Part shown: one piece after another, positions 19,361 through 60,465 of the stretch
How the letters are laid out: the number at the start of each line of letters is the position of its first letter
Position numbering within the stretch: the first letter of the stretch is position 1
Source: Desulfonatronospira thiodismutans ASO3-1
GTDB taxonomy: Bacteria > Desulfobacterota > Desulfovibrionia > Desulfovibrionales > Desulfonatronovibrionaceae
DNA length: 64,000 bases
Reading direction: 5' to 3'
Assembly (NCBI RefSeq): GCF_000174435.1
Contig: NZ_ACJN02000002.1
Coordinates: 997,490-1,061,489 of the forward strand
The notes under the pieces: generated by a model
Seen by the model: only the letters and a program-made list of their open reading frames with translations
Database searches by the model: none
Told to the model about the DNA's origin: nothing
Program-made: the position numbers and the translations under genes

Positions 19361-19522
19361 TTAACCCTGCAGCGAAACTTATGACTGACCTACGGGGACT
19401 GTCCCGCACCTACTTGGGAATGATTTCATGAAATCGCTGGAACTTGCTGAGAAATCAAGTAGGTGCGGGACTGTCCCCAATTGAGATAATATTATATTTT
19501 ATAAGTTTCGCTGCAGGGTTAA
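19361..19522. mobile_element. Nested inverted-repeat element (MITE/REPIN-like) before rpoD
   Basis: A perfect 22-bp outer inverted repeat (19361-19382 and 19501-19522, reading TTAACCCTGCAGCG inward) with imperfect extension outward to about 19350/19533. Inside it is a 23-bp inverted repeat (19394-19416 and 19456-19478) with one mismatch that begins GGGGACTGTCCC, and in the centre a palindrome GATTTCATGAAATC. No ORF of its own. The outer ends follow the same pattern as the elements at 42623 and 43545 (T-A-x-C-x2-T-x2-A-G-x-G). No target duplication could be recognised here. It separates dnaG from rpoD and ends 34 bases before the rpoD start. Confidence 0.6.
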
Positions 19523-27547: not shown

Positions 27548-28396
27548 ATGGTTACAGTGGAATGCATTACGGATCTGCTTACTCCTGAAGGAGACAGCCG
27601 GATCCGGGAACTGGTCCTGGAAGAAAAGCCGGTGGGCGTGGTCTTGAACGATGAACCTGTGGGCACGGCCATGGTCATGGCCAGGGATCTGGAAGAACTG
27701 GCTGTGGGCTACCTCTTCGGGCAGGGACTCATTGAGCCCGGGGACAAAATATTCGACATAGAGGTCTGCGAGCAGGGCCGCATCAATGTGTACGCAGAGG
27801 TAACCCCCAGGCCGGATGACGAGATGATCACCACTTCTGGATGCGGGGGCACGGGCAAAATAGCCAGGAGGCTTCTGCACGAGGATTATCCGGAACCTGC
27901 AGACTTCTGTATCTCTTTTCATGAGGTGGCAGAGCTTATCAAAAGAACTCTTGCCTGGTCATCTCTGTCCCAGGACACCCATTGCGTGCACGGTTGCGGC
28001 TACTACAGTGAGGGTGCTTTTCAGGTATGCTACGAAGATGTGGGCAGGCACAATGCGGTGGACAAGCTCATGGGGGCTATTCTGCTGGGGCGGTTTTCCC
28101 CTAGGGGAGCGGCTTATACCACGGGCAGGCTGACCTCGGACATGGTGCTCAAATGCGCCCGCATGGGCATACCTGTGGTGCTGTCCCGGACCGCGCCTTC
28201 CTCGCTGGGACTGGATATCGCCCGCAGGTCGGGCCTTACCCTGGGGTGCTACGTACGCCCGGGCCGGGTGAATGTCTTCAATGCTCCGCACAGGATTGTG
28301 CGGGAAGGCCTGTCCGACAAGTCTGACGTGTCGGACAGGTCTGACAAGTCTGACGTGTCGGACAGGTCGAACAGGTCAGACAGATCGGACAGGTAG
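27548..28396 (+). CDS. fdhD: Formate dehydrogenase accessory sulfurtransferase FdhD
   Basis: A 282-residue FdhD: EKPVGVVLNDEPVGTAMVM, DLEELAVGYLFGQGLI, the active loop TTSGCGGTGK (Cys99), EDVGRHNAVDKLMGAILLG and SRTAPSSLGLDIAR. FdhD passes sulfur from a cysteine desulfurase to the molybdenum or tungsten cofactor of formate dehydrogenase. The E. coli protein has C-x2-C in the loop; here the second position is Thr. The last 27 or so residues (SDKSDVSDRS repeats) are encoded by a 9-bp tandem array that continues past the stop codon and are probably not part of the fold. Confidence 0.92.
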   Translation: MVTVECITDLLTPEGDSRIRELVLEEKPVGVVLNDEPVGTAMVMARDLEELAVGYLFGQGLIEPGDKIFDIEVCEQGRINVYAEVTPRPDDEMITTSGCGGTGKIARRLLHEDYPEPADFCISFHEVAELIKRTLAWSSLSQDTHCVHGCGYYSEGAFQVCYEDVGRHNAVDKLMGAILLGRFSPRGAAYTTGRLTSDMVLKCARMGIPVVLSRTAPSSLGLDIARRSGLTLGCYVRPGRVNVFNAPHRIVREGLSDKSDVSDRSDKSDVSDRSNRSDRSDR

Positions 28397-41251: not shown

Positions 41252-41932
41252 ATGCAGGAAAAGAATAATCAGAATATGCTCCTGGAGCTGGACCGGGTCA
41301 GCCATTTTTTTGACCAGCGGTTAGTGTTCAAAGATATCACCCTGAGCCTGGGCAAGGGCCAGGTGCTGCTTCTGGCCGGCCCCAACGGCGCGGGCAAGAC
41401 CACCCTGGTTAATATCATGACCGGGTTGATCCGGCCCGTGCACGGAACTGTCCAGGCCGGCGTGCCCAGCGGGAAGACAGCCTACCTGGGGCACCATACC
41501 TTTATTTATCCCGGGCTCAGTGCCCTGGAAAACCTGCGGTTCTGGGCCGGGATGTACAGCCTGGACAGAAGCGAAAAAGAGTTTTTAGACCTGCTGGCCC
41601 TGGTGGGGCTCAAGGGCTTTGCCTATGAAAACGCGCGCACATTTTCCAGGGGCATGTCCCAGAGGCTGAGCCTGGCCAGGGTGCTCATGCTTGAGCCTGA
41701 ACTTATTTTCCTGGATGAACCGGCCACCGGCATGGACGCCCAGTCCCGGCGCATGTTAAGAGAGGAAATTGGCAAGGCCAGGCAAAGGGGTGCTTCCATG
41801 GTCTGGGTCAGTCACAGCCTGGAAGAGGATCTGGATCTGGCAGACTTTGTTTTATACCTGGAAAATAAAAAGCAGGCTTACCTCGGCCCGGCCAAGGATT
41901 TCAGAGATCACTGCAGGGAGAACCAGCTGTGA
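41252..41932 (+). CDS. ccmA: Heme exporter ATP-binding protein CcmA
   Basis: A 226-residue ABC ATPase: Walker A GPNGAGKTT near residue 46, signature FSRGMSQRLSLARVL near 130, Walker B LIFLDEPATGMD near 151. With CcmB, C and D it releases holo-CcmE. The start at 41252 lacks a good ribosome site; an ATG eight codons later (MLLELDRVSHFF) is an alternative. It overlaps ccmB by 4 bases. Confidence 0.92.
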   Translation: MQEKNNQNMLLELDRVSHFFDQRLVFKDITLSLGKGQVLLLAGPNGAGKTTLVNIMTGLIRPVHGTVQAGVPSGKTAYLGHHTFIYPGLSALENLRFWAGMYSLDRSEKEFLDLLALVGLKGFAYENARTFSRGMSQRLSLARVLMLEPELIFLDEPATGMDAQSRRMLREEIGKARQRGASMVWVSHSLEEDLDLADFVLYLENKKQAYLGPAKDFRDHCRENQL

Positions 41933-42603
41933 CCTCCAGGCCCCTGGCCCTCATGGCCAAGGATCTGCGGCTGGTGTTCGCCGACGGAGCAGGCATTGTT
42001 CAGCCGGTGCTTCTGGGTCTTATCCTGGTTTTTGTCTTCAGCCTTTCCACCCCGGTGGGTGAGGATGTATCACCGCAGGCTGCCGCAGCTATTTTCTGGC
42101 TGGCCACCAGCTTTGCAGTGATCCTGGTGTTCAACACCCTGTACAGCAGCGAGGGGGCCAATCAGTCCAGGATAGGGCTGCTTCTGGCGCCCATGCCCAT
42201 ACAGTACATATGGATGGGCAAGGCCCTGGCCGGGGGGGTGCTGCTGTTAATGGCCCAGGCGGTTTTTCTTCCGGCAATAGTGGTTTTCCTGGGACAGGAC
42301 CAGGTAGTGTCCTGGCCGGGTGGAATCGGCTCCATCCTTCTGGTGGACTGGGGCCTGGTGGCGGTGGGCTCCCTTCTGGGGGCCATGTCCCAGGGGCACA
42401 GCGCCAGGGATTCCCTTTTAAGCGTGGTTATATTTCCATTGCTTATTCCTGTTCTGCTGGCCGGGATCAGCATGGGGTCCTATTTTCTCGGGGATGGATC
42501 AGGCGACGACTTAAGATCATGGATGGGGCTGGTTCTGGCGTTTAATGCAATGTTTACCGGCGCCGCTCTGCTTCTTTTTCCGTTTATCTATGGAGAGTAC
42601 TGA
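41929..42603 (+). CDS. ccmB: Heme exporter membrane protein CcmB
   Basis: A 224-residue protein with six predicted helices and the family start LALMAKDLRLVFADGAGIVQPVLLG plus FNTLYSSEGANQSRIGLLLAPMP. The GTG start overlaps the ccmA stop. It is the membrane partner of the CcmA ATPase. The normal ccmB-ccmC junction is disturbed by a small inverted-repeat element that begins 19 bases after the stop. Confidence 0.92.
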   Translation: MTSRPLALMAKDLRLVFADGAGIVQPVLLGLILVFVFSLSTPVGEDVSPQAAAAIFWLATSFAVILVFNTLYSSEGANQSRIGLLLAPMPIQYIWMGKALAGGVLLLMAQAVFLPAIVVFLGQDQVVSWPGGIGSILLVDWGLVAVGSLLGAMSQGHSARDSLLSVVIFPLLIPVLLAGISMGSYFLGDGSGDDLRSWMGLVLAFNAMFTGAALLLFPFIYGEY

Positions 42604-42622
42604 TAAAAGGTGCTTTTAACGC

Positions 42623-42710
42623 GCAACCATTCAGGGGATGCCTCAATCGGCCTGGGGACAGTCCCCAGGCCTGTGCCAGCAATCACTACCGAGGACCCCT
42701 GAATGGTTAC
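42623..42710. mobile_element. 88-bp MITE-like element between ccmB and ccmC
   Basis: Terminal inverted repeats GCAACCATTCAGGGG (42623-42637) and its partner at 42696-42710 (reading GTAACCATTCAGGGG inward, one mismatch). The direct repeat TTTAACGC lies immediately outside both ends (42615-42622 and 42711-42718), as expected of an 8-bp target duplication. Inside is a 23-base odd palindrome centred on A42660 with core GGGGACAGTCCCC. Too short to code. GTAA ends with an 8-bp duplication recall IS66-family transposons, so it may be a non-autonomous relative (inference). Confidence 0.75.
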
Positions 42711-42727
42711 TTTAACGCCGTGAGTAA

Positions 42728-43423
42728 ATGTACAAAATGAAATACAGCGATACCGTTTCATCCCTGCTGGTCCCCCTGGCCCTGGCCGGCGGGGCGGCCA
42801 TGGCCCTGGCGCAGTATTTTATCTGGTTTTACGCGCCTGTGGAAGCCACCATGGGCCTGGTGCAGAAAATATTCTATCTGCATCTGCCGTTGGCCTGGTG
42901 GGGACTGATATGTTTTTTCACTGTGTTTTGCGCCAGCATTGCTTTTCTCGTGCGCAAAAGTCCGGTCATGGACCAGCTGGCGGTTGCGGCGGCCGAGGTG
43001 GGACTGTTACTCAGCACGCTGGCCCTGGCCACGGGCTCTCTCTGGGCCAGGGTGTCCTGGAACACATGGTGGACATGGGATCCCAGGCTCTCCACAGCTC
43101 TTATCATGTGGTTTATTTACGCCGGTTACCTGGTGCTGCGCCAGTCCATAGAGGGACAGCGCAAGATGCGCATGGTGGCTGCTGTCCTGGGTGTGGTGGC
43201 CTTTTTGAATGTACCCCTGGTATTTTTGTCGGCCCGCATGTGGCGCAGCATTCATCCCGCTGTGTTCGCCTCTGAGGGCGGCGGCCTGGAACCGGAAATG
43301 ATGACCACTGTAGTGGTCTGCGTCATAGCCATGGGGTTAGTGACTGCGGCCCTGGTCCTGATGCGCTTCAGGCAGAAAAACCTGCAGGAGCGGCTGTGGA
43401 ATCTGTATATGTACAGGGATTGA
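42728..43423 (+). CDS. ccmC: Heme handling protein CcmC
   Basis: A 231-residue protein with six predicted helices and the WWD motif WNTWWTWDPRLSTALIMWF near residue 115. Conserved His residues before (YLHLPLAWWG) and after (RSIHPAVF) the motif fit the heme-axial-ligand positions. It loads heme on CcmE. It starts 18 bases after the 42623-42710 element and its flanking repeat. Stop is followed by word repeats and a second element. Confidence 0.93.
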   Translation: MYKMKYSDTVSSLLVPLALAGGAAMALAQYFIWFYAPVEATMGLVQKIFYLHLPLAWWGLICFFTVFCASIAFLVRKSPVMDQLAVAAAEVGLLLSTLALATGSLWARVSWNTWWTWDPRLSTALIMWFIYAGYLVLRQSIEGQRKMRMVAAVLGVVAFLNVPLVFLSARMWRSIHPAVFASEGGGLEPEMMTTVVVCVIAMGLVTAALVLMRFRQKNLQERLWNLYMYRD

Positions 43424-43474: not shown

Positions 43475-43544
43475 AGCATCATGTGCTTAACACGGACTTT
43501 GGAGCAATATGCCGGCAACTGATTCCCTATACCACGCATACAGG

Positions 43545-43695
43545 GTATCTGTTTAGCGCTTTGCATGTGGCATGGGGACTGGCTCTTCCGGGACCCACTT
43601 GTCCCAAAAAATGAGATATTTTAAGCACAAAATGATGCTCAAGTGGGTCCCGGAGTGCCTGTCCCCTGCTTTCCTTAAAAGCGCTAAACAGATAC
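43545..43695. mobile_element. 151-bp nested MITE-like element between ccmC and ccmD
   Basis: An 18-bp perfect terminal inverted repeat (43545-43562 and 43678-43695; GTATCTGTTTAGCGCTTT) flanked by the direct repeat CATACAGG at 43537-43544 and 43696-43703 (the next base G is also shared). Inside is a second inverted repeat of 27-28 bp (43574-43601 and 43640-43666) that begins GGGGACTGGC and contains CCGGGACCCACTTG. No coding capacity. Same plan as the elements at 42623 and 19361: variable ends, conserved GGGGAC inner stem. Confidence 0.78.
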
Positions 43696-43790
43696 CATAC
43701 AGGGCTTCTACCGGTCCCGATTCAGCACTCACTTTTGGCAATTAAGAAATACCAGAAAAAATAGTATTCAAAAGTTAGTGATGGAATAAG

Positions 43791-43918: not shown

Positions 43919-44047
43919 ATGACATATCTGATTGCCAGCAACGTGGTTGTATGGTTGGGCATCGGGGGGTACTTGTTCTTTCTGGCCATGGGTCAGAAGA
44001 AGCTTGAGAAAAAGATAAGGCAGCTGGAGGTGATGCACCATGAGTAG
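43919..44047 (+). CDS. ccmD: CcmD-like small membrane protein
   Basis: A 42-residue protein: one helix (residues 8-24, VVVWLGIGGYLFFLAM) followed by a basic tail GQKKLEKKIRQLEVMHHE, the size and plan of CcmD, which holds CcmC in the CcmABC complex. It is missed by length-limited gene finders. It overlaps the next gene start by 8 bases. Identification rests on size, topology and position after ccmC. Confidence 0.7.
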   Translation: MTYLIASNVVVWLGIGGYLFFLAMGQKKLEKKIRQLEVMHHE

Positions 44048-60262: not shown

Positions 60263-60465
60263 GCCAGTAGTCCGGGGGTTCGGCAAACAGGACGTAAAAA
60301 CTCGCTCCAAGGCAGCGTAAATCAAAACCTCTACAAGTTTTTTTTATCCAGAATATTTTCTTTATTATGCTTTGAATCAAGTTCGGTGTTTTACGGTTTT
60401 GATTAACGCTGCCTACGTCGCTCAGACAGTTTACGCCCAGTTTGCCGAACCCCCGGCCCCTGGCT
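60263..60465. mobile_element. 203-bp long imperfect hairpin between convergent genes
   Basis: Outer perfect 17-bp arms CCGGGGGTTCGGCAAAC (60272-60288) and complement at 60440-60456, extended by GCCAG on both sides; inner arms GGCAGCGTAAATCAAAACC (60311-60329) and complement at 60395-60413 with one mismatch; a 65-base AT-rich loop contains T8. No ORF. It fills the 349-base gap between the HD gene and lon and could be a MITE or a large bidirectional termination structure. No target duplication is obvious. Confidence 0.55.

Follow-up and report, generated by a model that had tools for sequence, protein, structure and literature searches.

The 151-bp element inserted between ccmC and a ccmD-like open reading frame of Desulfonatronospira thiodismutans ASO3-1 is in all likelihood a non-autonomous MITE that is probably moved in trans by an IS66 transposase, carries a separate hairpin core of a kind shared across MITE families, and is probably nearly neutral in the ccm operon. 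The element lies in a window of 64,000 nucleotides, the whole stretch of DNA that was analysed, and its parts and neighbours are collected in Table 1.

Table 1. Parts of the family-B element, the surrounding ccm genes and the other MITEs of the window.
Feature	Position	Strand	Remarks
Left target-site duplication, CATACAGG	43537-43544	.	
Left terminal inverted repeat, GTATCTGTTTAGCGCTTT	43545-43562	+	IS66-type end
Inner core, left arm	43574-43601 (28 nt)	+	opens GGGGACTGGCTCTTCCGGGACCCACTTG
Inner core, loop	43602-43639	.	most variable part across 151-bp copies
Inner core, right arm, CAAGTGGGTCCCGGAGTGCCTGTCCCC	43640-43666 (27 nt)	+	
Right terminal inverted repeat	43678-43695	-	exact reverse complement of GTATCTGTTTAGCGCTTT
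Right target-site duplication, CATACAGG	43696-43703	.	
Whole family-B MITE, 151 bp	43545-43695	.	100% identity to at least 13 other genomic copies
ccmB	41929-42603	+	Pfam PF03379
ccmC	42728-43423	+	Pfam PF01578, Cytochrom_C_asm
ccmD-like 42-aa ORF	43919-44047	+	position and translation alone
Family-A MITE, 88 bp, single-stem form	42623-42710	.	between ccmB and ccmC
Family-A duplication, TTTAACGC	42615-42622 and 42711-42718		
Family-C MITE	19361-19522	.	ends [TTAA]CCCTGCAGCGAAACTTAT, TTAA both sides, GGGGACTGTCCCGCACCTACTTG stems

Read directly from the sequence, the element is exactly 151 bp long and ends in perfect 18-bp terminal repeats, which were scored by program as 19 bp because the last G and the first C of the flanks pair by chance. 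Flanks identical at 8 of 8 positions at such a spacing occur with a frequency of about 1e-4 in the 64-kb window, and the match seen here is not due to chance. Both the terminal repeats and the flanking duplications that an earlier note on this DNA had described are thereby confirmed, as is its first element in the same operon, the duplication-flanked family-A MITE. The inner 27-bp inverted repeat starting at GGGGAC was correctly recognized as a stem, opening GGGGAC and closing GTCCCC, but not as a perfect one: 15 bp are perfectly paired (43587-43601 with 43640-43654), and the outer part contains three mismatches and one bulge. Folded as RNA, the element is predicted to form a single long hairpin (-84.8 kcal/mol, z = -12.5). 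No plausible gene was found within its 151 bp, and it is thus short, non-coding and bounded by terminal inverted repeats, as MITEs are. It begins about 120 bp past the ccmC stop and ends about 220 bp ahead of the 42-aa ORF; of the two genes between which it had been placed, ccmC is backed by its Pfam domain, and the 42-aa ORF, for which no Pfam match was found, can be called ccmD by position.

Collecting the genomic copies and comparing their outer and inner parts, as the earlier note had proposed, showed that the duplications recur and that the family to which the element belongs, here family B, is homogeneous with one fixed outer end. The B end motif has 114 matches at no more than three mismatches in the 4.1-Mb genome, versus 3 for a reversed control, and the family is present in about 55 copies. 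Pairing of ends within stretches around the end-motif matches yielded 44 distinct elements, so that the family has the many copies expected of a MITE; 35 of the 44 are exactly 151 bp long. A perfect 8-bp duplication flanks 33 of the 44 paired elements, and five more match at 7 of 8 positions, which bears out the claim that the element is mobile and that its direct repeats recur elsewhere. The 151-bp copies (n = 35) share a mean identity of 98.7%, and 15 of them have the same sequence. The window element is a young MITE, and the spread of its family appears to reflect a recent burst. Family B also occurs in Desulfonatronospira and Desulfonatronovibrio assemblies, with up to 99% identity in another genus.

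Integration into a formerly uninterrupted site can be followed for one B copy (L399:2041), whose site is cleanly unoccupied in Desulfonatronospira CSSed11_143 (locus L260; 93.9% identity over 505 bp across the junction). Target duplications and an empty site, both expected of MITEs, are therefore found for family B. The copy in the ccm operon has its duplication and no empty counterpart; in the nearest relative, about 380 bp of surrounding sequence are missing. B insertions avoid genes: 4 of 36 lie within an ORF of at least 150 aa, whereas random positions fall in such ORFs at 83% across the window and at 38% in the vicinity of B loci.

The neighbouring element belongs to family A, and its site is empty in the closest relative (genome G002, locus L345), where the target is present once and identity over the 500 bp spanning the junction is 89.6%. 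The ends of this family, GTAACCATTCAGGGG, have 443 genomic matches, and about 220 copies are present. In a sample of 93 paired copies, which is not a whole-genome count, perfect 8-bp duplications flank 46 and duplications matching at 7 or more of 8 positions flank 64, with element lengths from 48 to 457 bp. Family A is older than family B; mean identity in its 165-182 bp class is 70%. Three forms can be distinguished, a two-stem form of about 175 bp, a single-stem form of about 90 bp to which the window copy belongs, and a core-less form of 62-66 bp. Intact duplications flank some copies of all three, and the shorter forms may have arisen when sequence between GGGGACTGTCCCC or GGCC repeats was deleted. 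Across 28 A copies, the ends are conserved at 98/96% and the GGGGACTGTCCCC boxes at 93/98%, versus 73-76% in between; when the stems were checked for compensatory changes, the boxes proved nearly invariant and therefore uninformative.

Some A elements contain further modules. At six loci (L132, L421, L427, L430, L439 and L450), a second palindromic module, TCACGCCTCTGGCGTGA, adjoins the GGGGAC core, as though various small palindromes could be fitted between the same ends. Six A elements flanked by 8-bp duplications and 258-457 bp long (L023, L037, L050, L431, L435 and L453) have a different interior with CAGCCGTGAGCGGC...GCCTTCAGGCTTC palindromes, either next to the GGGGAC core or in its place. 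Two other repeat arrangements were seen in the window: nested inverted repeats at 60272-60456 (outer 27 bp, CCGGGGGTTCGGCAAACAGGACGTAAA; inner 20 bp, AGGCAGCGTAAATCAAAACC), possibly a MITE or a relic, and short repeat units of alternating orientation around GTCGGACAGGTC at 28309-28393.

The 8-bp duplications of family B have the length produced by IS66 transposition (PMC11946415, PMC3281130). Two elements with IS66 transposases from other genomes of the phylum, L391 and L392 (1757 and 1758 bp; PF03050 in L392, E 1e-45), are flanked by perfect 8-bp duplications and end in GTAACTATTCAG, which the first 12 bases of family A (GTAACCATTCAG) match at 11 and those of family B (GTATCTGTTCAG, the C variant of the end) at 10 positions. 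A B variant with the end GTAACAGTTTAG is intermediate between the two. The outer ends of A and B, which the earlier note had reported as different, do differ but are not unrelated; to judge from these alignments, they are divergent versions of one terminal motif. It is important to note that this agreement of 10 to 11 of 12 bases is with L391 and L392 and not with the classical GTAAGCG with which reference IS66 ends begin (PMC11946415); the B ends begin GTAT, not GTAA.

A non-exhaustive search of this genome revealed no autonomous element ending like B or A, and no unpaired B end could be followed into a transposase gene that is part of the B element. The ends of family B are thus not seen to be shared with an autonomous element of the same genome, a feature that is usual for MITEs and not obligatory. 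Loss of the parent is common, so that a missing partner is no bar to MITE status. Several candidates were considered and set aside. Those of this genome's own IS66 copies that could be bounded end in GTAAGCGTCCATTT.... Comparison of copies showed that the DruA/ISAs1 element at L143/L159 was itself inserted into a B copy, with duplication of GGTATCTGTT, and an IS66-DruA element at L198/L318 (ends GTAACTTCTCAATAG, 8-bp duplication) lies inside a B-variant relic and has ends unlike those of B. At L232, a chimera that starts with a B end and closes with an A end might have shown that one enzyme acts on both families, but it has no matching duplication.

Together, the similarities in ends and duplication length suggest that A and B are moved by an IS66 enzyme. 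A DDE transposase of this family, acting in trans on GTAnCnnTTnAG-type ends, would join the element to targets staggered by 8 bp. Its IS66 partner may have been lost from this genome, or may be present there unrecognised; the autonomous parent would be expected to combine an IS66 transposase with GTATCTGTTCAGCGC or GTAACCATTCAGG ends. Mobilization by another transposase family that likewise duplicates 8 bp, such as ISAs1, is unlikely: the genome does contain a multi-copy ISAs1-DruA element, and a partner with B ends was not found in it, yet the ISAs1-DruA ends here start CAGGGCC and do not match B, and it is IS66 elements of other genomes that agree with the MITE ends.

As an aside, this genome has 15 DruA (PF14236) genes (L151-L160, L070-L074, L196, L198 and L159), many of which accompany IS66-type or ISAs1-type transposases (IS66 with DruA; DruA with DDE_Tnp_1_assoc), and one DruA-bearing element in a relative is clearly flanked by an 8-bp duplication. 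In this setting, DruA has the look of an accessory gene of transposons.

A third family connects the ends to the question of the core. Family C has ends (C)CCTACAGCGAAACTTAT, 4-bp TTAN duplications and GGGGAC stems. Arms of the type GGGGAC[TA]G-(GCTCTCC or GCACCC)-CCGCACTTATTTTT occur within B ends (31 counts) and within C ends (24 counts). Over about 80 bp, from GGGGAC to GTCCCC, the cores of B variants and C are 94-96% identical, versus 36-50% in the adjacent 25 bp on each side, the level of unrelated sequence, and the identity breaks at GGGGAC and GTCCCC. Comparably high core identity is found between two elements of the ASO3-1 genome, L055 (a B variant) and L136. These comparisons indicate that the inner core is a separate module, conserved apart from the ends and shared by B variants and family C. 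The exchange concerns the CCGCACTTATTTTT core type; the window copy carries another type, with CCGGGACCCACTTG arms. The A and B elements of the operon taken alone would not show exchange, because their cores, at most 74% identical, have in common only the GGGGAC/GTCCCC boxes; the comparison of B with C does.

Nested insertions, which are frequent, may offer a route for such exchange. At L016, a B copy is inserted in an A element between two copies of GAAGGATC, a C element is nested in B at L270, and B/C chimeras, with one family's left end and the other's right end around a core, were found at five loci. The simplest route may be that one MITE lands inside another and that recombination between near-identical palindromic cores then passes the core between families. 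Ends and core would thereby form two layers, the ends setting which transposase moves the element and the core being traded between families. In this genome, an A left end and a C right end also occur around a core at L426:600.

The earlier interpretation of a modular family was thus partly supported. The exchangeable core holds in the B-C comparison, with its unrelated flanks, but the two elements of the operon represent two families rather than one family with swapped ends, and of the inner stem that they were said to share, the boxes are common to both and the cores diverge. The GGGGAC...GTCCCC core could even be a mobile module of its own, REPIN-like and riding on unrelated MITE families (IS66-type and TTAN-type) between which it passes; this is a tentative proposal, somewhat less probable than its negation. 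If it is true, a single hairpin has two transposition chemistries to spread it in addition to that of its own RAYT.

A REPIN-like character had also been assigned to the core. The box GGGGACAG forms the left border of a multi-copy unit with a Y1 (RAYT-like) transposase in this genome, and GGGGACAG or GGGACAG precedes the intact R92/R87-class Y1 genes tested, at a position of about -85 to -101. The box-bearing genes form two subfamilies with about 45% mutual identity, and the box is absent upstream of all tested members of two other Y1 classes. By definition, a RAYT gene has REPs on either side (PMC2817692); here the box was observed solely 5', with none 3' of the R92/R87-class genes, and inverted boxes flanking a RAYT gene were thus not observed. 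Two inverted boxes around a variable spacer, as in REPINs, are present in family A (boxes 93-98%, spacer 73%). The doublet is not itself the dispersed unit: at 29 of the 30 loci with the GGGACTGTCCCGCAC stem it lies inside A or C ends, and the thirtieth is a one-mismatch match without a paired stem or ends. Most GGGGAC stems without visible ends turned out to be decayed copies or the second, inner arm of an A element.

Because the tested stem was not found outside a MITE, the core is no self-standing REPIN here. The boxes upstream of one Y1 class make the term REPIN-like reasonable and support a RAYT-type origin. A transposase unit of the RAYT type (HUH, Y1) probably supplied, in its end sequence, the ancestor of the core, which would be a REPIN-like passenger; at most, the core works or worked like a REPIN. 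That the whole element is a REPIN (REP doublet) mobilised by a RAYT, its outer inverted repeats being merely an extended hairpin, is very improbable. The inverted GGGGAC box pair with its variable spacer and the fixed site of the box upstream of a RAYT-like gene class fit such a reading, but the repeating unit is bounded by 18-bp ends and 8-bp duplications, which contradicts a REPIN for the whole element; the GGGACTGTCCCGCAC stems are confined almost entirely to MITE ends, and there are core-less elements flanked by duplications (L049, L452 and L207).

At the same place in the ccm operon, the element is missing from genomes G002, G003 and G005, and in G006 the ccmC-ccmD gap is occupied by a family-C MITE instead. 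Neither a terminator-like site nor an Rfam match was found in the element. Most probably, the insertion is intergenic and nearly neutral, and it likely gives the ccmC-ccmD transcript an additional hairpin of 151 nt. That this hairpin was co-opted as an RNA element for the processing or attenuation of ccm transcripts, with selection preserving its structure, is very unlikely, since its strong fold, the presence of two MITEs in this operon and the C-family MITE of G006 are set against the missing terminator and Rfam matches, the lack of a counterpart in three genomes and the identical copies at many unrelated loci.

The usual account of a MITE is that it is what deletion has left of a single parent IS. 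The present data suggest ends and cores that evolve separately, which makes it testable whether REPIN-type hairpins can persist by hitch-hiking on other transposons. Desulfonatronospira, a soda-lake sulfate reducer with several hundred such elements, many of them near-identical, is a good place to watch this process.

Among known systems, the elements resemble IS-derived bacterial MITEs such as RUP, the Correia elements, MITEAba12 and the P. syringae MITEs in being short and non-coding with inverted ends, target duplications, many near-identical copies and a hairpin fold. Unlike these, they have IS66-like ends with 8-bp duplications and a core that is separately conserved across MITE families. 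A literature search combining MITE, IS66 and target duplication returned no paper, which is weak evidence of novelty. With the IS66 family the window element shares 8-bp duplications and the 10/12 match to the GTAACTATTCAG ends of L391/L392; it differs in having no transposase gene, in its first four bases, GTAT rather than GTAA, and in that no partner was found in the same genome. Like REPINs and REPs with their RAYTs, the cores have two inverted conserved boxes around a variable spacer, and GGGGACAG borders a RAYT-like unit; unlike REPINs, they lie inside MITE ends rather than dispersed alone, and the box is found only 5' of RAYT-like genes. A further parallel is the MITEtron, a MITE-intron composite of Ca. 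Thiomargarita nelsonii, which likewise joins mobile modules of two kinds in a DR-IR-x-IR-DR layout and in which the partner is a group I intron (PMC4853749) and not, as here, a REPIN-like hairpin common to several MITE families.
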